Source: Acidobacteriota bacterium (GTDB lineage: Bacteria; Acidobacteriota; Terriglobia; Acidiferrales; UBA7541). Taken from it: a DNA stretch of 64,000 nucleotides. The translations under genes and the position numbers were made by a program. The notes beneath the pieces were generated by a model that saw only the letters and a program-made list of their open reading frames with translations, ran no database searches and was not told the origin of the DNA. The DNA lies in assembly GCA_003223325.1 (NCBI GenBank), contig QHYS01000017.1, forward strand, positions 1-64,000. Reading direction: 5' to 3'. Shown one piece after another: positions 4,605 to 45,274 of the stretch (positions are counted from its first letter, which is position 1; each line of letters starts with the position of its first letter).

Positions 4605-5564
4605 TCAGTTTTTCAGGAAATTACGCGTATCCTCAACGGCGAATGTTGCTATCGGTTTCTTCACTGGTTGCATAGTCGTGATCACTACCACACTGGTCAG
4701 AACAAACAGAGTCCCCAGAATCGTTCGCAGACCAAGCCCTTCGCCGCCCAGGAAATATCCCAGCAGCACGGCCACAACCGGATTGACGTATGCGTAGGTA
4801 CCGACTTTGGTCGGTGACTCGTGGTCAATCAGCCACACGTAGGCGGTAAACGCGATGATAGAACCGGCGACAATCAGGTAGGACAACGACAGCCACGTTG
4901 CGCGTGAGACCGCCCCTGGATGGAAGTGACGAAATTCGCCGAGCGCGGCAGACGTGAGAGTCAGCAACACTCCTCCGGCGAGCATCTGCGCCCCCGAGCT
5001 CATGACCTTGGAAGTTGGAAGCGGCAGCTTGCGCGTAAGCGCCGCCGCCACCGACCAACCTATAGATGCAACGATTAGTGCCACCGCACCCGCACTGTCG
5101 ATCGGCTGCCCACCCAGGCTCAATGAACGACTCATCAGCACTGCTACGCCGCCAAGACCGATCAAGAGCGCCAAGGCCAAGCGAGCGGTGAGCTTTTGCG
5201 TTCGCAGCAAGATGATTTCTGATAGGGCCATAAACGCCGGGATCGTAGCCATGATGACCGCGGCCATGCCCGAAGGCACGCGCTGCTCGGCCCAGAACAA
5301 CAGCCCATAGTCGAGGACGAAGATCAAGATCGCAAGTAAAAATGCCGACATCCATTGTCGCCCGCTCGGTGAGCGCTCGCCCCGCGCGGTCATCCAGCAG
5401 TAAAGAACGAGTCCTGCAGCCAGGAACCGCATCGCCGCGAGAAGGAACGGCGGAACTTCGCGGACGCCAACGCGAATGGCAAGAAATGTAGATCCCCACA
5501 CAAAGTAGATAATCGCGAAAGCCAACAGAGTCTTCCACGCCGGGGAAGAGGTTTGGGTTTCCAT
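4605..5564 (-). CDS. EamA/DMT family transporter
   Basis: 319 aa, about 10 hydrophobic helices; IYFVWGSTFLAIRVGV...PPFLLAAMRFLAAG and a second EamA repeat. Confidence 0.9.
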   Translation of the reverse strand: METQTSSPAWKTLLAFAIIYFVWGSTFLAIRVGVREVPPFLLAAMRFLAAGLVLYCWMTARGERSPSGRQWMSAFLLAILIFVLDYGLLFWAEQRVPSGMAAVIMATIPAFMALSEIILLRTQKLTARLALALLIGLGGVAVLMSRSLSLGGQPIDSAGAVALIVASIGWSVAAALTRKLPLPTSKVMSSGAQMLAGGVLLTLTSAALGEFRHFHPGAVSRATWLSLSYLIVAGSIIAFTAYVWLIDHESPTKVGTYAYVNPVVAVLLGYFLGGEGLGLRTILGTLFVLTSVVVITTMQPVKKPIATFAVEDTRNFLKN

Positions 5565-12520: not shown

Positions 12521-14221
12521 ATGTCGAAGATAGCGCTTGTGGCCGTCGTCATGCTCGCAGCACTCAGTTCATTCTTGTTTGTGCCGCGTCAGATCGAGGC
12601 CGCGAATTCGCTTGTCGCCTTGAGCGGGCAGGTGAGCTCGGAGAAGGAAGGACCGATGGAAGGCGTGATTGTCGGCGCCAAGAAAGACGGCTCCACGGTT
12701 ACGATCGACGTGGTGAGCGACGACAGCGGCCGCTATAGCTTCCCCTCCTCGAAACTTGGGCCGGGGCACTATTCCCTTAAAATTCGCGCGGTTGGGTACG
12801 AGATGGAAAGCCCCAAGACTGTGGATGTTTCACAAGGGGCAAGCGCGACAGCGGATATCAAGCTCCAACCGGCAAAGAATCTTGCCGCGCAGTTGAACAA
12901 CGCGGAATGGCTCATGAGCATGCCCGGAACTGATGCGCAGAAGAGGTTTCTCCTCGACTGCACCGGCTGCCATACCCTCGAGCGCATTGCACGGTCCACT
13001 CACACTGCCGATGAATTTGTGCCGCTGATCCAGCGCATGGGCCTTTACTCCCAGGGGAGCACGCCCGCGCGTCCTCAACTGCTGGCCGGCGGGGCACGCA
13101 GACCACCTACCGAAGCAGCAGTAAAAGCGCTCCAACCCGTAGCCGAATGGCTGGCCACCACGAATTTGAGTTCCACTGAGAAGTGGGACTATACGCTCAA
13201 GACCCTGCCGCGACCTAAGGGCAGGGCCGGGCGTGTGATCGTTACGGAATATGAGTTGCCGCGGAAAGTGGCGCAACCACACGACGTGGTGGCCGACTCG
13301 ACGGGCACCGTGTGGTATTCGGATTTCGCCGACGAACTCATCGGGAAGCTTGATCCAAAAACCGGCGAGGCCACGGAATATCCGATTCCTCTGCTGAAAC
13401 CGGGATTCCCGAAGGGATCGCTCGAGCTGCAACTCGATAAAGATGAGAATCCGTGGCTGGCCTTGATGTATCAGGGAGGCATCGCCAAATTCGATAGGAA
13501 GACCGAGAAAGTTCGAGTGTTTCCGTTACCAAAAGCACTGCAAAAGGATCACACGCAGGAATCGATGGTGATGCCGATTTACTCGAATGTTGACGGCAAG
13601 GTTTGGACGAACAATCAGGACGACCATTCCATTCTGCGGCTGGATCTGAAAACAGGGGCATACGAGAATCTGGGCACGTTTGCCATACCCGGCGCGGGCC
13701 GTAACCTCAACGCGTATGGCATCCCGGCGGACCATCGGAACAATCTCTATCTGCTGGATTTCGCCGCCGATAATATAGGCAGGATCGACGCGAAGACCAA
13801 AGAGTTCAAGGTTTATCCCACGCCAACGCGTGACTCGCGGCCGCGCCGCGGTATGGTCGACGCGCAAGACCGTCTGTGGTTCGCAGAATACGGAGCCAAT
13901 GCCGTGGCCATGTTCGATCCAAAGACAGAGAAGATCCAGGAATGGAAAGTGTCCACACCGTGGAGCGCGCCCTACCAGGCGATAGTTGATAAGAACGGCG
14001 ACGTCTGGACAGCTTCCATGTTCACCGATTTCGTCGTTCGGCTCAACCCCAACAAGGGAGAGGTCACGGAATATCTGCTGCCGCAGCAGACCAATGTTCG
14101 GCGTGTCTTCGTCGACAATTCAACGACGCCGGTGACATTTTGGGTGGGCAACAACCACGGCGCCTCGATTATGAAGCTGGAACCGATCGATGAAAATGTT
14201 CAGTCGAGAGCTGCTAGATAA
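12521..14221 (+). CDS. Exported carboxypeptidase-regulatory domain + monohaem (CTGCH) + streptogramin-lyase (Vgb-like) beta-propeller protein
   Basis: Signal peptide, LSGQVSSEKEGPMEGVIVGAKKDGSTVTI, DCTGCHTLE haem motif, repeated DP-KTGE-TEYP/IGRIDAKTKEFKVYPTP; paralogue of 62432..64000. Confidence 0.85.
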   Translation: MSKIALVAVVMLAALSSFLFVPRQIEAANSLVALSGQVSSEKEGPMEGVIVGAKKDGSTVTIDVVSDDSGRYSFPSSKLGPGHYSLKIRAVGYEMESPKTVDVSQGASATADIKLQPAKNLAAQLNNAEWLMSMPGTDAQKRFLLDCTGCHTLERIARSTHTADEFVPLIQRMGLYSQGSTPARPQLLAGGARRPPTEAAVKALQPVAEWLATTNLSSTEKWDYTLKTLPRPKGRAGRVIVTEYELPRKVAQPHDVVADSTGTVWYSDFADELIGKLDPKTGEATEYPIPLLKPGFPKGSLELQLDKDENPWLALMYQGGIAKFDRKTEKVRVFPLPKALQKDHTQESMVMPIYSNVDGKVWTNNQDDHSILRLDLKTGAYENLGTFAIPGAGRNLNAYGIPADHRNNLYLLDFAADNIGRIDAKTKEFKVYPTPTRDSRPRRGMVDAQDRLWFAEYGANAVAMFDPKTEKIQEWKVSTPWSAPYQAIVDKNGDVWTASMFTDFVVRLNPNKGEVTEYLLPQQTNVRRVFVDNSTTPVTFWVGNNHGASIMKLEPIDENVQSRAAR

Positions 14222-14224
14222 AAA

Positions 14225-14806
14225 TCAACGCTGCGAGGCCAGGATCCTCTCGACGTCTGTGCATGCCATGTGCAGAGACTTGATCTTGGTTCCGTAGGTG
14301 GTGAGCCCCAGTTGTCCGGGCGTGATCTGATGGCAGGTGGTGCAACCGAACTCCTGAAACCGCGCCGCTCTCTGTTTTTCCTCTGCGCTGCGATCCGCGG
14401 GCTTCACTTGGGCGATTACGTTCATCGAAGTGAGCAGAGCGATACAGCCTTCAAATCCCTTGCCCACCTGCGTGCCGCGTTCCGTGAAACCGAGTTTCCC
14501 GTTCGCGCCGAGCGTGTGGCATTTGTTGCATCCGTGGTGTTCGAAAACGTAGTGCGCGAGCTCAGCTGAACTCATCTTGGACATTTGCGCGTCCGTCAAC
14601 TCATTGGCCGACGTAGAAGCCTTAGATGACTGCGCACGTTGAGAACTCGGCTGGGATTGAGAGAGCAATAGAACGGAGCCGAGCAAAAGAGAAGTGACAC
14701 CCAGCGAGGCTGTCGCAGTTCTTGTGAGGTTTACAGGATTCTTGAAATTAGGCCTGGCAGGAGACAATAGACTCGCTACCTTTGCAACCTTGCGTCCTAC
14801 AATCAT
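14225..14806 (-). CDS. Cytochrome c (two CxxCH)
   Basis: HGCNKCHTLGANG and FGCTTCHQITPGQLG; N-terminal hydrophobic segment. Confidence 0.8.
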   Translation of the reverse strand: MIVGRKVAKVASLLSPARPNFKNPVNLTRTATASLGVTSLLLGSVLLLSQSQPSSQRAQSSKASTSANELTDAQMSKMSSAELAHYVFEHHGCNKCHTLGANGKLGFTERGTQVGKGFEGCIALLTSMNVIAQVKPADRSAEEKQRAARFQEFGCTTCHQITPGQLGLTTYGTKIKSLHMACTDVERILASQR

Positions 14807-14845: not shown

Positions 14846-17122
14846 CTACCGCGCCGAGCGAGTCGTCCCGTTTCCCAAGGTTGACTGAGTTTGGGAACGC
14901 TCCGAAAAAAGGTTGGGTGCGAGAAAGCTGAACAATCCGTTGCGAATGCTGTCGGTGGCGAAGACTTCGCCGTCCTTGGGATCAATGGCCACTCCACCGG
15001 GATGGACCAAAAAGGTGTTGTCCCCCTGGATGATCGCGCGCGGCGGCACATCGCCATTATCATTTATATCCCAAACGCCTATAAAGCCCAGAGCGCCGCT
15101 GTTCCAAGGCGATGGCAACTGCACGTCGTGGGGCAAATCGGTCCGCGGTTTTTCCAATTGGTAGGGAGGATGGCTCTCATTGTTGATTGCAGCAACAAAA
15201 AGCTTGCCTCGCTGGGGATCGGAAGCAAGTTGCCAGGGCCGCACGATTCCCGTCTTTGGCCCGGCGATCACTGCTCGCGGAGCTACGTCGCCTTGATCGG
15301 TCCGCCCGAAGATAAACAGGCCCGTCTTTCTGCCAGGCACGCTCGCGGCGCTGGCGGCAATGAGGCGATCGTGTGTCGAGTCGACGGCGACGCCCACGAC
15401 AAACAATAGTCCGGTGCGAGGACCTTGAATGATGCGCTTGGGCGGCACGTTTCCGTTGGCACTCCGATCGAAAACCAAGACGCTACGGCCGCTCGAATCT
15501 CCGACGATGATTTCGTTGTCCTGCTCATCCACGGTAACGGTGTGCGGCCGGATCATCTTCGTGTTTGTTCCTTGGATCACGCGAATCGGCGCCTCGGAAC
15601 CATCGGCGCCGCCACGAAACACCAGTACGGCATCGGCCAGCGCGACCGGGACGACGACTTCGTCATGCGTCGCATCGTAAGCGATCCCATGCATCGTTCG
15701 GCTCAGGCGCGTAGATTGGCCGGCGATAATTCTCACTGGATTTGAATTTCCGTTTGCCGACCTGGCAAACACCGCGATCCGCGGCTGGCTCACTCAATTG
15801 GGAACCAGGAGCTGATCGCGCTTGGAATCGTATGCGACGGCATACGGGTTACCGAAACCGCCAGTTGGCGTCCCTGCCGGAGCGTTGCGAATGATTCGCT
15901 TGGGTGCGATATCGCCGCTAGCATCGCGCGCAAAAACCAGCGCGGTGTGGTCGCCGTAGTTGGCCACCCAAAGTTCATTGTGTTCGACGTCAACGGCCAC
16001 GCCCATGGGGCTCGAAATACCCGTTTTTGCCCCTCGAATCACGCGCGCAGGAGTGACATTGCCCCGCGCCGTGCGGCGAAATACGAGAACGGAATTATCG
16101 CCATTATTCGCGACGGCAATTTCATCGTGCGCACCATCGAGATCGATTCCCATGGGCCAATTCAGCTTCGTATTTGGACCCTGGATTGTGCGCACGGGCT
16201 TGGCATCCCCCCTGGCCATTTCATCGAAGACGTTGATTGAGGGCGGTACAAATTCTCCGCCGAGAATACTCTCCTCGCCAGCCGGCACCTGCGCGTCGTA
16301 AGCGGTGTAGGGCGCGATCTCCGTCGAATTCCCGTGGCTTGCCACCATAATCTCGCGGTGATTTACATCCCATCGCACGCCGTGAGGGTCCGCCAGATTC
16401 GTGTGAGGTCCCTTGATGATGCGGAGCGGAGCTTCCATGCCATTGGAGTCGCGGCGGTAGACGGCGAGCATGCTGAGCTGCTGAACCGAGATGACCATTT
16501 CTTGGCGCGAGTCGTTCAGGGAAATTCCCCAACTTTGGTGCGGGACGTATAGATGACGCTTCGGTTTGAGATCGCCATTCGCATCGTAGTCGAACACGGC
16601 GATACGATCTTCGACGTCGTTATTCACGGCATAAATTTCCCGGCGCTGCGGATCAATTTCGACTCCCGCAATGAAACCGACCTCGGTCTGTGGGCCGATA
16701 ATCTGCCACATGGGGGATGTCACCGCCGACGAGTTGCCGCCCGCCGAGCGATCATAAGTCAGGACGCTTTTGCGGTTCTCGTCGCTCATGAGCACGCGAT
16801 TACTGTGTGTATCCAGGACGATGCCGTTGAACGTGGGGTAAGGGTCGATCACGTAGCGAACCGGAGGAAGCTGTCCAACGCCGATGGTGCCGGCATTGCT
16901 TTGTGGAGCAGCCAAAACGTTTGGCCCGCCATCGCCCCACCACGTGCACATATCACCCGTCGGATCAGCCATCAGGCGCGCAAGTGGACTCGAGGGATAG
17001 GTGAGGACGATCGGCACTCGGCGCCCCACAAATCCAAAGAAGCACAAGCCCCAAGCGCCGAAAAACGCGATCAGCCGCAACGATAAGGAGCGCCAGACCC
17101 GGTTAACTGAAGCCACCACCAA
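14846..17122 (-). CDS. Candidate selenoprotein: exported NHL-like beta-propeller (about 758 aa) with in-frame UGA at 15794-15796 (copy C)
   Basis: ORFs 15794..17122 and 14846..15793 are adjacent in one frame: ...AYDSKRDQLLVPN-[TGA]-VSQPRIAVFARSANGNSNPVRIIAG... N-terminal hydrophobic segment only in the upstream half; conserved hairpin downstream of the TGA. Confidence 0.8.
15752..15770 (-). promoter_or_regulatory. SECIS-like hairpin, copy C
   Basis: Sense strand GTTTGCC-AGGTC-GGCAAAC: 7-bp stem, 5-nt loop; loop begins 30 nt after TGA. Confidence 0.75.
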
Positions 17123-17364
17123 TCACCTCGAAGCCAGTTGGAAACACGCTCCTAACCTTTCGCCGCTCTCGCCCAAACGCGTGCTCCAATGCAGCCACTA
17201 TATTCGTTGAATCGTGAGGTTACAAGCTTCTTATAATAGGCACGCTCTACCTCCGTGCTGGGCTCGATCATCTCCTCTCGAAAGTATTGGCCGAACAAGG
17301 CGGGTTGTTGCCCGGCCAAGGCGTTTAGTCCTAGTATGGAAGCCGCACCGGAGGCGGTCTGACT

Positions 17365-17688
17365 ATGGCGCGGAATGGGCAACATCGCGAAGCTGCTTCT
17401 CGGGACGTGAACCCGGACCATATCGTTAGCGTCCAGGATTTCTCGCGGGACACGTTGCGAAACGTCATCGCACACCTTAAGGCGTCCACTTCGTTTGAAC
17501 ATCTCGTCTATCGCGAGGCGGAGCTCGACGCCATCTGGACCATTACGGGTTTTTTTCTGGCGAATGAGCTGCCTTCCCGCCGGGACGATGCGGTGAAACG
17601 GCTGCACGCCGGGGCACAGAAGGCCCATGATCTGGTGGCGGATCGCCGCCCCGAAGCCGCGGCCACGGTTTTGGAGGCTTTTTTGTAA
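17365..17688 (+). CDS. Hypothetical protein
   Basis: 107 aa, GGAGG upstream of ATG, short gap to the Rieske gene; antisense ORF 17152..17628 is less protein-like. Confidence 0.5.
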   Translation: MARNGQHREAASRDVNPDHIVSVQDFSRDTLRNVIAHLKASTSFEHLVYREAELDAIWTITGFFLANELPSRRDDAVKRLHAGAQKAHDLVADRRPEAAATVLEAFL

Positions 17689-17707
17689 ATTGGGACGGGA
17701 TCGCTAA

Positions 17708-18994
17708 ATGCTCTCAATAGAAGAAAATAATCTACTGACCCAGACCGACCCGGGGAAGCCTGCCGGGCAGTACTTCCGCCGATTTTGGTTGCCGGCATTG
17801 CTACCAACCGAGGTGCCGAATCCTGACTGTCCCCCGGTGCGGGTCCGGCTCCTCGGAGAAGATCTCCTCGCATTCAGGGACACGAAGGGCCGGGTAGGAC
17901 TGATTGATGAGTTTTGTCCGCACCGCCGAGCCAGCCTCTTTTGGGGGCGTAACGAAGAGTGGGGTTTGAGGTGCGTGTATCACGGATGGAAGTTCGACGT
18001 AAATGGCACGTGCATGGACATGCCCAACGAGCCGCCGGAGTACGGCTTCGGAAACAAGTTGCGCACCACGGCCTACCCGACGCGTGAGTACGGAGGTTTG
18101 GTTTGGACCTATCTGGGTCCTCCGGAGCACGAGCCCGAGTTGCCCAAACTGGAGTGGGCGCGCGTTGCGGACAATCAGCGCTACATGTCAAAACGCTTCC
18201 AGGAGACGAACTACCTGCAAGCCATCGAAGGGGGTATCGACTCCAGCCACTCGAATTTTCTTCACGCCAGCCTAGACGCGTTTCGGGTGACCGATTCCTA
18301 CGTGGAAAAGGTAAAAAATAGCGGCACTCTGCGGGCGAAATATCATCTCTTGGACAAGGCGCCGCGATTCACGGTAAAGAAGACCGATTATGGCCTGGTG
18401 ATAGGAGTGCGGCGCAATGCTGAGGACGACAGGTATTACTGGCGGCTAACGCAGTTCCTGCTTCCCAGCCACACCATGATTCCGTATGAGAAGGGGCTCG
18501 CGATTCACGGGCACTGCTGGGTGCCGCGAGATGATCAGACTTGCTGGGTCTGGACGATCAGTTGGAATCCCGAGGGACCGCTCTCCGAGGAGGAATGGAA
18601 GACGATTCGGGATGAAACCTTCGTGCATGCGCAAGTGGATCCGGTTACCTTCCGGCCCGTGCGCAATAAAGCGAATCAATACCTGTTAAATCGTGAGAAA
18701 CAGCGAACCGCGAACATGACGGGCATCCACGGATTTGCCTCGCAAGATCAGGCGATTCAGGAAAGCATGGGGCCAATAGTGGACCGCGCGCGGGAACGCC
18801 TCGGGACCAGCGACACGGCGATCATTGCTGCGCGCCGCTTGCTGCTTCAGGAAATTCGGGACCTGGCCGAGGGGCGCGAACCGTACACAGCGCGCCATGG
18901 CGACGTTTACTGGGTCCGCTCCGCCTCGCTACTTTTGAAGCGCGACGTCGAGTTCGACGAAGGCTCGCGCGAACTGACGAAGGCCGAGGTCTAG
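17708..18994 (+). CDS. Rieske non-haem iron ring-hydroxylating oxygenase (phthalate 4,5-dioxygenase-like)
   Basis: Rieske motif CPHRRASLFWGRNEEWGLRCVYHGWKF; EGGIDSSHSNFLH mononuclear Fe region. Confidence 0.9.
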   Translation: MLSIEENNLLTQTDPGKPAGQYFRRFWLPALLPTEVPNPDCPPVRVRLLGEDLLAFRDTKGRVGLIDEFCPHRRASLFWGRNEEWGLRCVYHGWKFDVNGTCMDMPNEPPEYGFGNKLRTTAYPTREYGGLVWTYLGPPEHEPELPKLEWARVADNQRYMSKRFQETNYLQAIEGGIDSSHSNFLHASLDAFRVTDSYVEKVKNSGTLRAKYHLLDKAPRFTVKKTDYGLVIGVRRNAEDDRYYWRLTQFLLPSHTMIPYEKGLAIHGHCWVPRDDQTCWVWTISWNPEGPLSEEEWKTIRDETFVHAQVDPVTFRPVRNKANQYLLNREKQRTANMTGIHGFASQDQAIQESMGPIVDRARERLGTSDTAIIAARRLLLQEIRDLAEGREPYTARHGDVYWVRSASLLLKRDVEFDEGSRELTKAEV

Positions 18995-19750
18995 GTGAAC
19001 TCGAAGACGCCATGCACCGAAATAGACCTTGAACGGGGCCTTCGTGAATCGGGCATCCGCGAAGAACTGGTGCAGGCCTGCAAGGTCCTCTACGCCGTCA
19101 AGGCCGCCGGAGACGGGCTCGGCGGACACCTGAGCTTCCGGTTAGACGAAAAACGGATCCTTATTAAGCCGCGCCCGGTTAGCTGGCGAGGGCTAAAGCC
19201 TGAAGACCTGATCGTCATTGATGGCAACGGCAAGCGTGTGGATGGAGCCGCAGGCGAGCGCAGCGCCGTGCGCGAATGGCCAATTCATGCCCAGATTTAT
19301 GCCGCGCGGCCAGATGTGCAGTGCGTGCTGCATGCTCATCCCAGCGCTTCAACCCTCATGGCCGCCCTCGGCATTGCGGTTGAGCCATTGGATCAGGATT
19401 GTGCTGCATTCGCGGGCCGGCTTCCGATGCTCGACAATGGCGCCGTGAGCATCGCCACGCCGGAGCTAGGCGATGAGGTTGCGCGGGTGCTCGGCAAAGG
19501 GGGTGCCGTGCTGCTGAAGAATCATGGCAGCATCGTCGCGGGAGCAGACGTTGCATATGTGTGCGTTACGGCGTACAGGTTGGAGAAGGTCGCGGAGACG
19601 ATGTTAAGAGCGGCTACTCTGACAAAGCTGCCAGTAATGTCACCCGAGACGAGCGCTGCCATTCTTCAGGCGAGAGAAGCCGTCGAACCCGGCGCTGGCA
19701 GCAAGATGAACCAAGAGCGGTGGCAAATGATGCGGGACTATTATCTGTAA
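18995..19750 (+). CDS. Class II aldolase/adducin family protein (possibly dihydroxyphthalate decarboxylase-like)
   Basis: VLYAVKAAGDGLGGHLSFRLDEKRILIKPRP...IHAQIYAARPDVQCVLHAHPSASTLMAAL...LKNHG; GTG start directly after the upstream stop. Confidence 0.85.
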   Translation: MNSKTPCTEIDLERGLRESGIREELVQACKVLYAVKAAGDGLGGHLSFRLDEKRILIKPRPVSWRGLKPEDLIVIDGNGKRVDGAAGERSAVREWPIHAQIYAARPDVQCVLHAHPSASTLMAALGIAVEPLDQDCAAFAGRLPMLDNGAVSIATPELGDEVARVLGKGGAVLLKNHGSIVAGADVAYVCVTAYRLEKVAETMLRAATLTKLPVMSPETSAAILQAREAVEPGAGSKMNQERWQMMRDYYL

Positions 19751-19799
19751 ATCGTCTGAATCCTTTCATGCAGCACGGCGATCTGGGAGATAAATAGAT

Positions 19800-22010
19800 A
19801 TGCCCGAGAGGCGAACGGCTTGGCTTATGAGCGCGGGCGCTGCACTTATGTTTATCGGGGGCTGTTTCAATCTGTTTTTCCGCGCGACCCCCTCCCTTTT
19901 CCATTTCGGAACGCAAGCCAGCGTGGCCAGCGATGACGCGGCGGACGATGACGATAGCTGCGCCGACACGACGGAATTGGCAATGGCGATGACCGCGTGG
20001 AGGCAGACGCAGCAACGAGGAATCCATTCTGCTTTGTCTACCGAGGTTGAGACTGCGCCGGTTGGGGGGGACATCGCTCCGGCGCGTTCCGTTGTCGATG
20101 CGTACGCGAGTCTCCACAGTGTGGCGGTCGATCCTGATGCGAACCAGGTAATGGTGAGCGATTCCAATAGAGGCGCGATTTTTTTCTATAACCGAAGCGC
20201 CGGAGGCAACTCGTCGCAAATCGCGAATCCGGAGCGGGTGATCCGAGGGCCGAGTACGGGCATGATGTTTGTTGCCGGGATCGCGTTGGATACCACTGAT
20301 CGCGAGGTTTTTGCCGTAAACAACGATATCGGGGACCGCATGGAGGTGTTCCCATACGATGTGGAAGGGAACACTAAACCGAAGCGCGTGCTCTCGGTGC
20401 CACACGGGGCCTGGGGTGTGGCGCTCAATCCGATGCGGAAAGAGGTCGCCGTTTCGATTGAGCACCCCAACACAGTGGTGGTCTACCGTCGCGAAGCCAC
20501 TGGCAGCGAAGCGCCGCTGCGAGTGCTGCGCGGTCCAGAAACCGAATTGGCCGATCCTCATGGGATCGTAGTTGATACTGGCCACGACGAAATGCTCGTC
20601 GCGAACCACGGTAATTGGGCTCCTCTGACGCGCGAAGAGGAACAGGCGCAGGGAGGGCTCAGGGGCGGTCATTTCGCTCTGCCGTCCATCAATACGTATG
20701 CCATAGACGCCAAAGGCGACGACAAGCCCATTCGTAAAATTCAAGGCGCGCAGACGCAACTGAACTGGCCAATGGGGCTGAGCCTGGACGCGACGCATGA
20801 CGAAATTGCCGTGGCCAATTACGGCACGAATTCAATTCTGGCTTTCCGCCGCAACGCTGGTGGCGACGTGGCGCCACTGCGGGTAATCAGGGGCGATCGG
20901 ACAGGAATCTTGGGTCCGATGGGAGTGGCCATCGACGTCAAGAACGACGAATTATGGGTCACGAATTACCGGGACCACACCGCCGTCGTGTTCGCGCGGA
21001 CAGCGAACGGCAATGTGGCTCCGAAGCGGGTGCTACGCAATGCTCCTGCCGGAACACCCGCGGTCGGTTTTGGCAATCCGGGAGCGATTGCCTACGACTC
21101 GAAGCGAGGACAGATTCTGGTTCCGAATTGAGTGAGTGTACCCAGGATACTGGTATTTGCCAGGTTGGCAAACGGCAACGAAGGACCGGTAAGGGTAATC
21201 GAAGGCCAGGGTACCAAGCTCAGCCGCACGATGCACGGCATCGCATACGATTCCGTACATGATGAGATCGTCGTGCCGGTACATTTGGGAGGAGCGGTTC
21301 TTGTGTTCCGCGCCAGTGCCACGGGGGAAGAAGCGCCGATACGTATCATTCAAGGCCCACACACTCACATCCTGCGCCCGGAAACCGTGAACGTGGACGT
21401 GAAAAATAACGAAATCGTGGTCGGCGAGGACGTCGGACAGGACGTCATGTTCTTTCCGAGAGAGGCCAATGGAGACGTCGCGCCGCTGCGGACGATTCGT
21501 GGACCAAAGACGGGATTGGACGAAGTGCGCGGTGTGACGGTCGATCCTGTCCGAAATCTGCTCGTGGTTTCCAGTCGCAGCGGGAAGGGAACCACGGGAG
21601 TCTTCATCTTCAACCGGACTGATAACGGCGACGTGGCGCCGCGCTCGGTTATCGCCGGACCGAAGTCGGGAATCATCCGCATCCGGCAGGTCGAGGTCGA
21701 ACCCGAACAGGGCAAGATCTTCGTGGCCGTGAAGAACAATGTGGAATCCTACAGATTTGCAGATGGCTCGCCTTCGCCATGGAATCCCGATAAGCCTGGA
21801 TTTATTGGAGTATGGGATATCAACGATAACGGGGACGTGCCGCCGCGTGGTGTAATCAAGGGACCGGCGAGCGAAATGGTGTGGCCCGCGGGCGTGGCCC
21901 TCAATCCGGGAGACCGCGAGGTCTATACGATCGACAGCGTGTCCAATGGGATGTATTCGTACTATATGCCGGAATTCTTTCCCGCCGAGAAGCACCCCAA
22001 AAGGCAATGA
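19800..22010 (+). CDS. Candidate selenoprotein: exported NHL-like beta-propeller (about 736 aa) with in-frame UGA at 21129-21131 (copy A)
   Basis: ORFs 19800..21131 and 21132..22010 contiguous in one frame: ...AYDSKRGQILVPN-[TGA]-VSVPRILVFARLANGNEGPVRVIEG... N-terminal hydrophobic/lipobox-like LMFIGGC only in the upstream half. Confidence 0.8.
21156..21172 (+). promoter_or_regulatory. SECIS-like hairpin, copy A
   Basis: TTTGCC-AGGTT-GGCAAA; loop begins 30 nt after TGA (21129-21131). Confidence 0.75.
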
Positions 22011-24121
22011 TCAAAAAACTAGCCGCCGGACGTGTGCTCCGGGTGGCGTTGCTTGCGGCGCTGGCGACGCTAGGACGGGCCGCACCTCGGGAAAGTAAAT
22101 CCAGCAAACCGTCTCCTGAGGACATACCTCCTATCCGGATGATTGCTGACCCGTACCCGGCGTTTAACGGTATCGCGGTAGACGCTGCAAACGGGATCGT
22201 GGCCATGAGCGATCCGAACCGCAAGAGCGTGGTGCTTTACGATCGCGCCCGAGCGGGCCAAGGGGGAGCGAGCCGAGGCGATGCAAGTGTTCCCCTGCGC
22301 CAGATCATGGGCCCGGACTCTTTCCTGGGGATGATTGCGGGAATTATTCTCGACCCCCGGCGTCAAGAGATTTATACGGCGAATAACGACATCGAAGACA
22401 CGGTGGTGGTGATGCCCTACGGCGCGTCGGGTAATGTGAAACCGGCGCGCGTATTTTCGGTTCCGCATCAAGCTTGGGGCCTGGCGTTGAGCGATGTCGC
22501 CGACCAGATCGCCGTCACAGTGGAGGTCCAAAATACACTTGTCTTCTACCGGCGGCAGGTGAAGGGCGTGGAGGCCCCGGTGCGAATCATTCGCGGGGCA
22601 GACACCGGCTTGGCCGATCCGCACGGCGTCTATTGGGACGAAGCGCACAATGAAATCGGCGTCGCAAATCACGGAAATTTCCGAGGAATTGTGAAGAACA
22701 GGGGAGGCGGCTGCGCACCCTCGCTCGTGGTCGAAAACGAGGCCGAGGCGGGCGAGTCGCGGCCTCCATCGATTCGGATTTTTGCGGCGACCGCAAGAAA
22801 CAATGCGAAACCGCTGCGCGTGATTCAAGGCTCGAGGACGGGTCTCGACTGGCCGATGGGAGTCGCTTATGACCCCCAACATGATGCCATCGTTGTCGCG
22901 AATAACGGCGACAGCTCGGTTTTGATCTTCGGCCGAACGAGCGGCGGCGATGTGGCGCCGCTAAGGTCGATTCGTGGTGGTCGCACTGGCATTAGTCGTC
23001 CGATGGGCGTTGCGATCGATACGCTGAAGGGCGAAATTTGGGTTTCGAACTGGGGTGATCATTCCGCCCTTGCATTCGACAGCGGCGCGCGCGGTAACGT
23101 GGCGCCGAAGCGGACCATCAGGAGCGCTCCCGCAGGAACGCCCACGCCGGGGTTCGGCAATCCCATGGCCCTTGCCTATGACTCGAAACGCGACGAGCTC
23201 TTGGTGCCCAATTGAGTGACCCAGCCGCGCATCGCAGTGTTTGCCAGGCTGGCAAACGGAGATGCGGCGCCGACCCGGCTCATCACGGGGCAAAATACTC
23301 TACTCGGGCGCACGATTCACGGCCTTGCCTACAATCCCACGCGTGATGAAATCGTGGTGCCGAACGCCCTGGCGGATGCGGTTCTGGTCTTCCGCGCGGC
23401 CGCCGCGGGTTCCGAGCATCCGCTGCGCGTCATCGAAGGGCCACACACGCTTCTGGTAACGCCTCACGCCGTCAGTTTGGATTTGCGGAATCAGGAGATT
23501 CTCGTCGCCAGTCTGACGGGAAGACGCATCAACGTATTTCGCTGGGACGCCAACGGAGATGCCGCACCGGTTCGGCTTATCGAAGGGCCAAAAACCGAGC
23601 TTGGTCATGTTGTGGGACTCGCCGTCGATCCGGAGAGGAACCTGCTCGCCGTCGCGAATACTCACGAAATCCTGATCTTCAATCGCACGGACAATGGAGA
23701 TGTTGCGCCTCGGGGCCGGATCGCAGGGCCGAAGACGGGCATAACCGATGAGCCTTGGCAAATGGAGTTCTATAAGGGTCGCATTTTTTTGGCGGCCTCC
23801 AATCATTTCCATCAGAATCTTTATGACGGAGTCACGCTCAGGCCCGACGCGACTGATGTGCCCGATGATCCGTGGCTCAACCCCATTTTAGGTTTCATGG
23901 GTATCTGGAACATTACTGACAATGGAGACGTAGCGCCTCTGGCGATGATCCGCGGTCCTTTTAGCGGCTTGATTCACCCGGTGGGCTTAGCGTTGAACCC
24001 TAAAGATGGGGAAGTTTATGTGTCGGATAGCGTGAAAAATGGAGTTTTGGGCTTCTTGGTGCCCCAATTCTTCCCGCAAGAAAAACCAAATGTGAATTCT
24101 GATGGTCGGCAGTCAAAGTAA
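22007..24121 (+). CDS. Candidate selenoprotein: exported NHL-like beta-propeller (about 704 aa) with in-frame UGA at 23213-23215 (copy B)
   Basis: ORFs 21881/22007..23215 and 23216..24121 contiguous in one frame: ...AYDSKRDELLVPN-[TGA]-VTQPRIAVFARLANGDAAPTRLITG... Signal peptide MIKKLAAGRVLRVALLAALATLGRA at the proposed 22007 start (ATGA overlap with the previous gene). Confidence 0.8.
23239..23257 (+). promoter_or_regulatory. SECIS-like hairpin, copy B
   Basis: GTTTGCC-AGGCT-GGCAAAC; 5-nt loop begins 30 nt after TGA (23213-23215). Confidence 0.75.
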
Positions 24122-43014: not shown

Positions 43015-43713
43015 GGTGTTGGTCGATGGCCGAGCCGTCTATACGCCCCTTTTCGGCGGCGTTTATTGGGACATGGTGGACGTGCCGCTCGAAGACATTG
43101 ACCGCATCGAGGTAAATTCGCGGGCCGGGCGGGACAGTATGGGGCGCCAATGCGGTGAATGGCGTGATCAACGTTATTACAAAAAGCTCTGCAGACACGC
43201 GGGGCGGCTTGCTGACGGCCGGCGGCGGGACCCAGGTGCAAGGGTTTGGCATTGTACAGTACGGCGGAAAAATCAAGGATAGCACCCATCGAATCATCGA
43301 ATCTTTGCAAAGTAACTCAACAACGAGCACTTCCCCGATTTCAACGGACTGAACGGCGAGGATGGCTGGCATCTGCTGCACGGTGGTTTTCGGGCATACC
43401 GCGTTTTCTGCCAAAGACTCCTTGATGACTGAAGGAGACGTTTATAAGGGGAAGGAAGGCTCGATCTTCATGCATTCCGTCTTCTCTCCCCCTGACAACA
43501 TAAACGTACCGGGCCTAGCCGCATTGCTGGGAGGAAACGTACTGGGCCGCTGGAGTCACGTTTTTTCGAGTCGCCGTGACATGACAGTTTTATTTTGACA
43601 ATTACGATCGGGACGGTCCGGAATTAAACGACTTCCGCAATACCTTTGATCTCGATTTTCAGAATCACATCAACCTAGGCGCCCATCAGGACCTTATTTG
43701 GGGCCTAGGCCGA

Positions 43714-45274
43714 GTGGCCGGAGGCCATTGCTGGCCTCCAGCCCTCTAAGAACCGGACTTGAAAGTTTCCCTTCATCCGGCTCGAGCACTCAATAACGCC
43801 TCCATAAAAAACGAAGACGCGGCCTTATTCAAACGCAGATAAGGCCTACTCGATACTGACTTGCGGCCGAGTCACACGGCGGTGAAAAAATCCAACCGAC
43901 GTGTGTGAAGCTGCACCAACGGTTTACACCGTCGTCATTTGCTTTGCTTCATTCCGCGGTTCTGCAAATGGTCTCGAGTTCGAGCACCAACGAGAAGTGG
44001 GCTCCGTTTCCGGCGAGGTACTGTTGTCCCAGGGAGGCGACGCAACCGCCGAGTAGCCAGGCGCGATTACTCGCGCCCAGCCCTCTAAGAACCGTGCGTA
44101 ACACTTTCGCGTTACACGGCTCGAGCACTCAACAACGCCCCCATAACGAACGAGGACGCGGTCTTATTCAAATGCAATTAAGACCTACTCGATACTGGCT
44201 TACAGCCGATTCGCACGGCGATGGAAAATTCACCAGGCGTGTGGGAAGCCGCACCAACGGCTTGCGCCGTCGTCATTTGCTTTGCTTCCTGTCCGGCGAG
44301 GTGATGTTGTCCCAAACAGGCGACGCAACCTCTATCTGCGCTATTACAGCGCAGCATTCGCTTCCTTTCGCGCTCCCATACCCACATCGCCATTGTCCGC
44401 CTCACGGCTTCCTACCCCACTTTGTGGGGAACGATACGGGTTTACTCTGTTCCGCTGATTGGACATGTCAGGTAGTTTAGGTGCCCTCTGTACGCCGGCA
44501 GTGTTGTATTGCCCATGACGGAGGAGATAGAACCCTCCGTGCCCACTGCAAAAAGAGCGCATAGCATCTTCCGCTCCCTTCGGGTAACGACGCTTGCGAG
44601 AGTTTGCATCTGCTCACCGTGGTACCAACCCTAGCCCCGATCCGGATCGATGCTCCCAGATGCACCGTTGCCTCGCGGTTCCAGTGCCAACCTTTCGGTT
44701 GCGGGATTCATTGTCAGAGTGCTACCTAACAGGTCGTTGCCTTCCCGCTATGACTCCTAGGGTACTCGTCATGGGAGACGAGGTCCGGACGGAAGAGAAC
44801 TTCTTCCGATGGACAATCACAATCAACAGCTTTACAGGTCGCAGTCTAGATACCCGCATCGCCATCGATCGGCCTTGCGGCTTCCCTTCCTCTTTCAAGG
44901 AGCGATACGGGCTTACCCTGTTCCGTTGAAATGACACGATAGATTAGGTCCATTCCTCTACGCCGGCAGTGCGGTTTGCCCATGACGGAGTACGGTACAG
45001 ACTCCGTACCCAGTGCAAAAGAGCGCATAGCATCTTCCGCTCCCTGATGCTCACGACGCTTATGGAACGTTCGTGTATTCTGACCGTGATGCTAGCAGTT
45101 GCACCATTACCTCGCGGTTCTGGTGCCGACCTTGTGGTCGTGAGTACATTGTCCGAGGGCTATTCGACGGTTCGTTGTCTCGCCGCCTTACCTCGTAGGC
45201 CACGTTCGATGGGACGAACGGTCTGATCGATCCTCCTTTGCCAGACAATCAATTCAACAGCTTTCAGGTCGCAG
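43714..45274 (-). mobile_element. Outer ORF-less group II intron of a nested pair (boundaries +/-10 nt)
   Basis: Minus-strand 5' CTGCGACCTGAAAGCTGTTGA...; domain V GAGCCGGATGAAGGGAAACTTTCAAGTCCGGTTC (34 nt, 43750-43783) followed by GGAGGCCAGCAATGGCCTCC hairpin and CCACTCGG; interrupted by the inner intron. Confidence 0.75.
44053..44843 (-). mobile_element. Inner ORF-less group II intron (about 0.8 kb) nested in the outer one
   Basis: 5' CTGCGACCTGTAAAGCTGTTGATTG...; domain V GAGCCGTGTAACGCGAAAGTGTTACGCACGGTTC (34 nt, 44089-44122); GGCGCGAGTAATCGCGCC hairpin; CTACTCGG 3' end; no RT ORF. Confidence 0.75.

Follow-up and report, generated by a model that had tools for sequence, protein, structure and literature searches.

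The in-frame UGA codon found at one fixed position in three paralogous, exported beta-propeller genes is most probably decoded as selenocysteine (Sec), which would make these genes members of a new bacterial selenoprotein family. On the sequence evidence, a probability of about 0.93 is assigned to this reading; the figure refers to Sec and not to the function of the protein. The genes lie in a window of 64,000 nucleotides (the whole stretch of DNA that was analysed) from an Acidobacteriota genome assembled as 6.1 Mb in 377 contigs and 98% complete. Sec is favoured because uninterrupted relatives carry cysteine at the same residue, the hairpin that follows the codon fits the bacterial SECIS model and the machinery for Sec is encoded in the genome. 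In the proposed mechanism, the UGA would be decoded by SelB and Sec-tRNA-Sec under the direction of a compact SECIS hairpin located within the gene, starting 24 nt after the codon. The exported product is predicted to carry Sec in its second propeller, where the b-c loop of the first blade would hold it; there it may act without a partner cysteine, perhaps together with histidine residues. The enzyme may pass electrons to a c-type cytochrome encoded beside several of the copies, and in this genus it would sit in an aromatic-acid catabolic cluster. The initial annotation had proposed a candidate new selenoprotein family, a proposal now supported by the conservation of the TGA, covariation in the SECIS, the cysteine forms and the Sec machinery.

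Three loci interrupted by TGA at one residue

The three genes are regarded as encoding putative propeller selenoproteins when read through the TGA. Copy A occupies positions 14846–17122 of the minus strand (758 aa, from a TTG start that is uncertain), while the adjoining copies B and C are placed on the plus strand at about 19800–22010 (736 aa) and at 22007–24121 (704 aa). Each is composed of an upstream open reading frame ending in LVPN-TGA and a downstream one starting with VSQP, VSVP or VTQP, and the predicted Sec codons are located at 15794–15796 (minus strand, U443 of copy A), 21129–21131 (plus strand, U444 of copy B) and 23213–23215 (plus strand, U403 of copy C). With the TGA treated as a residue, the proteins align from end to end and each contains one TGA, in a column common to all three. 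Relative to copy B, sequence identity is 52% for copy A and 50% for copy C. An export signal was found in the upstream part of every copy and the downstream parts were without one. Both features, the break at an identical residue and the export signal confined to the upstream part, had been described in the initial annotation and are confirmed here. Moreover, the downstream dN/dS values calculated between congeneric or closely related copies ranged from 0.05 to 0.12, and computation showed purifying selection to act upstream as well as downstream of the TGA. The loci are thus characterized by an in-frame UGA flanked on both sides by conserved coding sequence, as is required of a selenoprotein gene.

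The hairpin downstream of the TGA

A SECIS-like hairpin starting 24 nt past the TGA, within the coding sequence, is typically of the form TTYGCC-AGGYY-GGCRAA. It is located at 15753–15769 in copy A (minus strand, TTTGCC-AGGTC-GGCAAA), 21156–21172 in copy B (plus strand, TTTGCC-AGGTT-GGCAAA) and 23240–23256 in copy C (plus strand, TTTGCC-AGGCT-GGCAAA). The loops AGGUC, AGGUU and AGGCU resemble that of Escherichia coli fdhF. When columns are counted from the T of the TGA as 1, a small hairpin in columns 13–25 is followed by the 6-bp stem and 5-nt loop in columns 28–44. In most sequences this second stem reads TTTGCC-AGGYY-GGCAAA, and in eight it reads TTCGCC-NNNNN-GGCGAA. The SECIS-like hairpin after the TGA recurs across the family as a conserved and covarying structure, in which the second stem is paired in 168 of 168 cells (28 sequences and 6 pairs). 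At pair 30-42, both sides have changed in the eight sequences; each base occupies the third position of its codon (Phe or Ala), and the changes are synonymous. The states of this pair require three changes on the tree and therefore represent about two independent double changes. In the small hairpin, which in copy A lies at 15772–15784 (minus strand, CCGCG-GAT-CGCGG), covariation from C-G to A-U is seen in 10 sequences, and its register is unpaired in the clade of copy B; it may be an accessory element.

Several observations indicate that the pairing is specific for this site. When the partners were shifted by one to three columns, pairing over the whole structure fell from 95% to 35–50%, and in comparable peptide contexts elsewhere in these proteins the six pairs were formed in only 5 of 153 places. 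The codons used at the site are strongly biased, Ala being encoded by GCC in 28 of 28 sequences (36% overall) and Arg by AGG in 23 of 24 (11% overall). The peptide encoded over the hairpin (VFARLANG) is not conserved in the cysteine homologues, which fits a requirement of the RNA, rather than of the protein, for holding the sequence fixed. A covariance model recovered the five sites of the genome itself with E values of 1e-14 to 5e-10, the next match in the 204 kb searched having an E value of 0.2; made from these same sequences, the model tests specificity only.

The element was compared with the published criteria for bacterial SECIS elements (PMC13188914). The distance from the UGA to the loop is 30 nt, the loop has 5 nt with G at position 1 or 2, and the stem has 6 bp. 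The 20-nt hairpin reaches -7.5 kcal/mol or lower in 26 of 28 sequences, copy B (-6.9 kcal/mol) being one of the two exceptions. Apart from the energy in these two sequences, the element agrees with the published model (PMC13188914). The unconstrained fold of the 54-nt region of copy B favours another structure, which counts against the proposal. Single-sequence folding of this region gave z values of -2.0 to -1.0, which are weak when taken alone and were not used as evidence.

Selenocysteine machinery

The genes selA (545 bits), selD (368 bits) and selB (348 bits, as pieces summed in one frame) are present in the same genome, all of them above the curated cut-offs. A complete tRNA-Sec was not found in this assembly by Rfam, ARAGORN or pattern search, and the sub-threshold Rfam matches to tRNA-Sec were other tRNAs (Leu, Ser, Thr, Glu, Gly and others). 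A search with the sequence of a congener located the first 30 nt of the gene, 100% identical, as the terminal 30 nt of contig C156. The end of this contig shares about 1.2 kb of upstream synteny with the congener G415, in which tRNA-Sec is intact, as it is in all three congeners. Therefore, the gene was probably cut by the assembly rather than being absent. Six other sites in the genome (G000 contigs C299, C81, C50, C370, C206 and C135; loci L100 and L102–L106) carry a copy of the tRNA-Sec 3' end, of some 24 nt or more and extending through CCA. Integrative elements with tRNA-Sec as their attachment site would be expected to leave such copies, and these repeats may explain the assembly break inside the gene. 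Another genome of the same family (G400, locus L091) contains two complete tRNA-Sec genes on one strand, at 1565–1663 and 5214–5312, about 3.6 kb apart.

Among the 16 distinct genomes carrying the TGA form, selA was found in 14, the other two being 73% and 77% complete. No selA match was obtained in G466, the source of two of the cysteine forms. This co-occurrence is consistent with Sec decoding and is weak alone, because selA is widespread among the Acidobacteriota, with matches in 252 of 396 genomes.

Homologues and cysteine forms

Two more full-length paralogues with TGA at the site are encoded in the same genome, on contigs C60 and C10 (52% and 39% identical to copy B, respectively), and the copies inside and outside the window are otherwise intact. 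A stray C-terminal fragment of 76 codons, 88% identical to copy B, lies on contig C288 (3167–3394; L037), the rest of that gene being absent. Scans that covered 84,980 species genomes and 396 genomes of Acidobacteriota revealed homologues in Acidobacteria subdivisions 2, 4 and 6, in Luteitalea and in several further families. All 28 distinct Acidobacteriota sequences with a readable site have TGA there, a recurrence far beyond chance; locus L059 provides an additional TGA sequence, and L051 ends exactly at the TGA. The weak homologues L054, L062 and L063 proved to be generic repeat propellers without the site, and the plasmid collection contained only distant relatives (27–36% identity).

Cysteine occupies the Sec residue in three homologues (L048, L049 and L112) from two archaeal MAGs, L048 and L049 being labelled Calditenuaceae, and these archaeal homologues are single uninterrupted reading frames. 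Three archaeal MAGs contain cysteine-containing or N-terminal partial homologues (L048, L049, L112, L113 and L115). On a midpoint-rooted tree, built with the Sec and the SECIS-coded residues masked, the three cysteine homologues form one clade nested among the Sec forms. This position makes a transfer between Acidobacteriota and archaea likely, and suggests that it was accompanied by Sec/Cys replacement, in either direction. The tree needs only one Sec/Cys swap, which counts against the proposal.

Predicted structure, gene neighbourhood and possible function

The AlphaFold2 model of copy B (pTM 0.82, with a low-confidence N terminus) has about twelve blades, and that of its second half alone (pTM 0.89) has six. 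As Pfam NHL repeats were also detected above the cut-off, the product is predicted to be an exported protein made of two six-bladed NHL-type propellers. In the model of copy B, Sec444 directly follows the strand 438-443 of the second propeller and falls in the b-c loop of that propeller's first blade. The invariant H479 lies 35 residues past Sec, near the start of the next blade. In the usual layout of propellers, the b-c and d-a loops lie on one face, so that Sec and H479 could be neighbours in space. Three histidines of the first propeller are also conserved, H254 in 27, H270 in 26 and H202 in 25 of 28 sequences. The 28-sequence alignment contains no conserved cysteine besides the site itself, and thus no partner cysteine, and no UxxC/CxxU, UHxP or known redox motif is conserved in the family. 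Matches to NHL propellers were obtained by PDB profile search and by Foldseek, in which the second half pointed to the NHL domains of TRIM71 and Brat and to the lyase PAL (3fvz, TM 0.66); in Foldseek the full-length model matched generic double propellers only, with no function indicated.

A gene for a small c-type cytochrome with two CxxCH motifs lies at 14225–14806 on the minus strand, 39 nt downstream of copy A and on the same strand. Such a gene is found directly 3' of the propeller in the window, L039 and L121, and a cytochrome c gene is near the propeller in L118. The cytochrome beside copy A is possibly a redox partner. At 12521–14221 of the plus strand, the window also encodes a virginiamycin-B-lyase-like propeller fused to CarboxypepD_reg, with one CxxCH haem motif; genes for such fusions occur near the propellers in the window, L122 (the C60 paralogue) and L050. 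Neighbour clusters were kept only with Pfam or CxxCH support, as clustering of raw reading frames gave many antisense artefacts. Within the genus, the neighbours include a LigXa-type Rieske oxygenase, from whose gene copy A is divergently oriented, a DASS anion symporter, an amidohydrolase, an HpcH aldolase and a class II aldolase that is nearest to 3,4-dihydroxyphthalate decarboxylase, below its cut-off. These catabolic neighbours suggest an aromatic-acid pathway. Elsewhere in the window (43709–45221, minus strand), Rfam gave two matches to each of the D1-D4-7 and catalytic-core families of group II introns, a pattern suggestive of two copies or pieces of an intron.

The protein might be a periplasmic or outer-surface oxidoreductase in which Sec acts without a partner cysteine and delivers electrons to the neighbouring c-type cytochrome. 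This proposal is tentative, with less than an even chance of being correct, and the redox role is a guess because no partner cysteine or known redox motif is conserved. If the residue is Sec, a non-redox role is also conceivable, and a metal-dependent enzyme of this kind is about as likely as the cytochrome-feeding one. Sec would then serve as a ligand to a metal, in a lyase, hydrolase or binding protein of the NHL type that acts in a PAL-like mode. The conserved H202, H254 and H270 of the first propeller and the invariant H479 of the second, the place of PAL among the NHL-fold matches, and the catabolic enzymes and transporter in the neighbourhood all agree with a metal site; on the other side stand the c-type cytochromes encoded next to several loci and the view that most known selenoproteins are redox proteins (PMC13188914). 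The most complete picture is also a doubtful one: an exported tandem propeller in which Sec and His, with no partner cysteine, would form an active site or a metal site on the channel face, expanded to five paralogues in one soil bacterium as a set of periplasmic enzymes that are coupled to c-type cytochromes and engaged in the breakdown of plant aromatics. If true, it would represent a new chemical use of selenocysteine.

Other explanations of the interrupted frame

Programmed or leaky readthrough in which a standard amino acid (Trp, Gln or Cys) is inserted at the UGA is improbable. The sequence alone is silent on which residue is inserted, and a hairpin could stimulate readthrough of this kind. 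However, the uninterrupted homologues carry cysteine at the site and never Trp or Gln, the hairpin conforms to the SECIS model, and the genome encodes the Sec machinery, all of which agree better with decoding as Sec.

Still less probable is a pair of translationally coupled proteins, with termination at the TGA and a restart at the adjoining codon. In copies A, B and C this codon is GTG, which could start translation, but six of the 28 homologues have GTA or GTC there, so it is not a start codon. A coupled restart also fails in the light of the structural model, since the TGA falls within a blade and would part two of its strands; moreover, an export signal is lacking downstream, each archaeal homologue is one unbroken frame, and the hairpin with its covariation would be left unexplained. 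The opinion given in the initial annotation, that separate proteins are implausible, gains further support in that no homologue was found with its halves as separate genes. Its other contention, that random nonsense mutation is unlikely, is borne out by the retention of TGA in two further paralogues of the genome and in all 28 Acidobacteriota sequences. Decay of the paralogues into pseudogenes can be dismissed, since the truncated fragment on contig C288 is set against the same TGA in 28 sequences across the phylum, in copies that are otherwise intact and show low downstream dN/dS.

Comparison with known systems

The 2026 catalogue lists 119 prokaryotic selenoprotein families or subfamilies (PMC13188914). 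Neither this catalogue nor the 2025 deep-Sep set (PMC12013277) contains a propeller, NHL or lactonase family, and the text of a 2022 review (PMC9312934) names no such selenoprotein, in line with the initial annotation, to which no described NHL-type propeller selenoprotein was known. No other description was found in the full-text literature, subscription literature and preprints being outside the scope of the search, and no NCBIfam model matched above its cut-off.

Selenoproteins with this fold, absent from the catalogue, would occur in an abundant and poorly cultured soil phylum and would offer a new protein shape in which to seek selenium chemistry. Because standard gene calling breaks each gene into two truncated reading frames, misannotation is likely. 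The proteins are multi-copy, exported and without the usual UxxC/CxxU, so their use of Sec may be of an undescribed kind, and the archaeal cysteine relatives provide a ready Sec/Cys comparison for biochemistry.

With bacterial selenoproteins such as formate dehydrogenase (FdhA/FdhF), the family shares the in-frame UGA, the SECIS-like hairpin at the published distance, SelA, SelB and SelD, a tRNA-Sec gene that in this genome is visible only as its first 30 nt, and the Sec/Cys pair; it is unlike all 119 catalogued families and has no UxxC/CxxU or UHxP. The fold and repeat are shared with the NHL six-bladed propellers (TRIM71, Brat and the Pizza designs) and with PAL, for which the likeness is a match of fold only, known here from the predicted structure. 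In contrast to the NHL structures, to which identity is only 14–18%, the family is tandem and exported and carries a predicted Sec. A propeller linked to selenium is the selenium-binding protein/methanethiol oxidase (SELENBP1, SBP), which binds selenium but is not known to be made with encoded Sec; the Pfam search, taken up to E = 1, gave no match to the SBP family profile. The lactonase, SMP-30 and 6-phosphogluconolactonase propellers gave weak profile matches over single stretches (26 bits for 6-phosphogluconolactonase, against an NCBIfam cut-off of 370), and to our knowledge no Sec occurs in these families. Sec decoding itself is already known; what is new is the protein family and its predicted Sec-carrying fold, the NHL beta-propeller.
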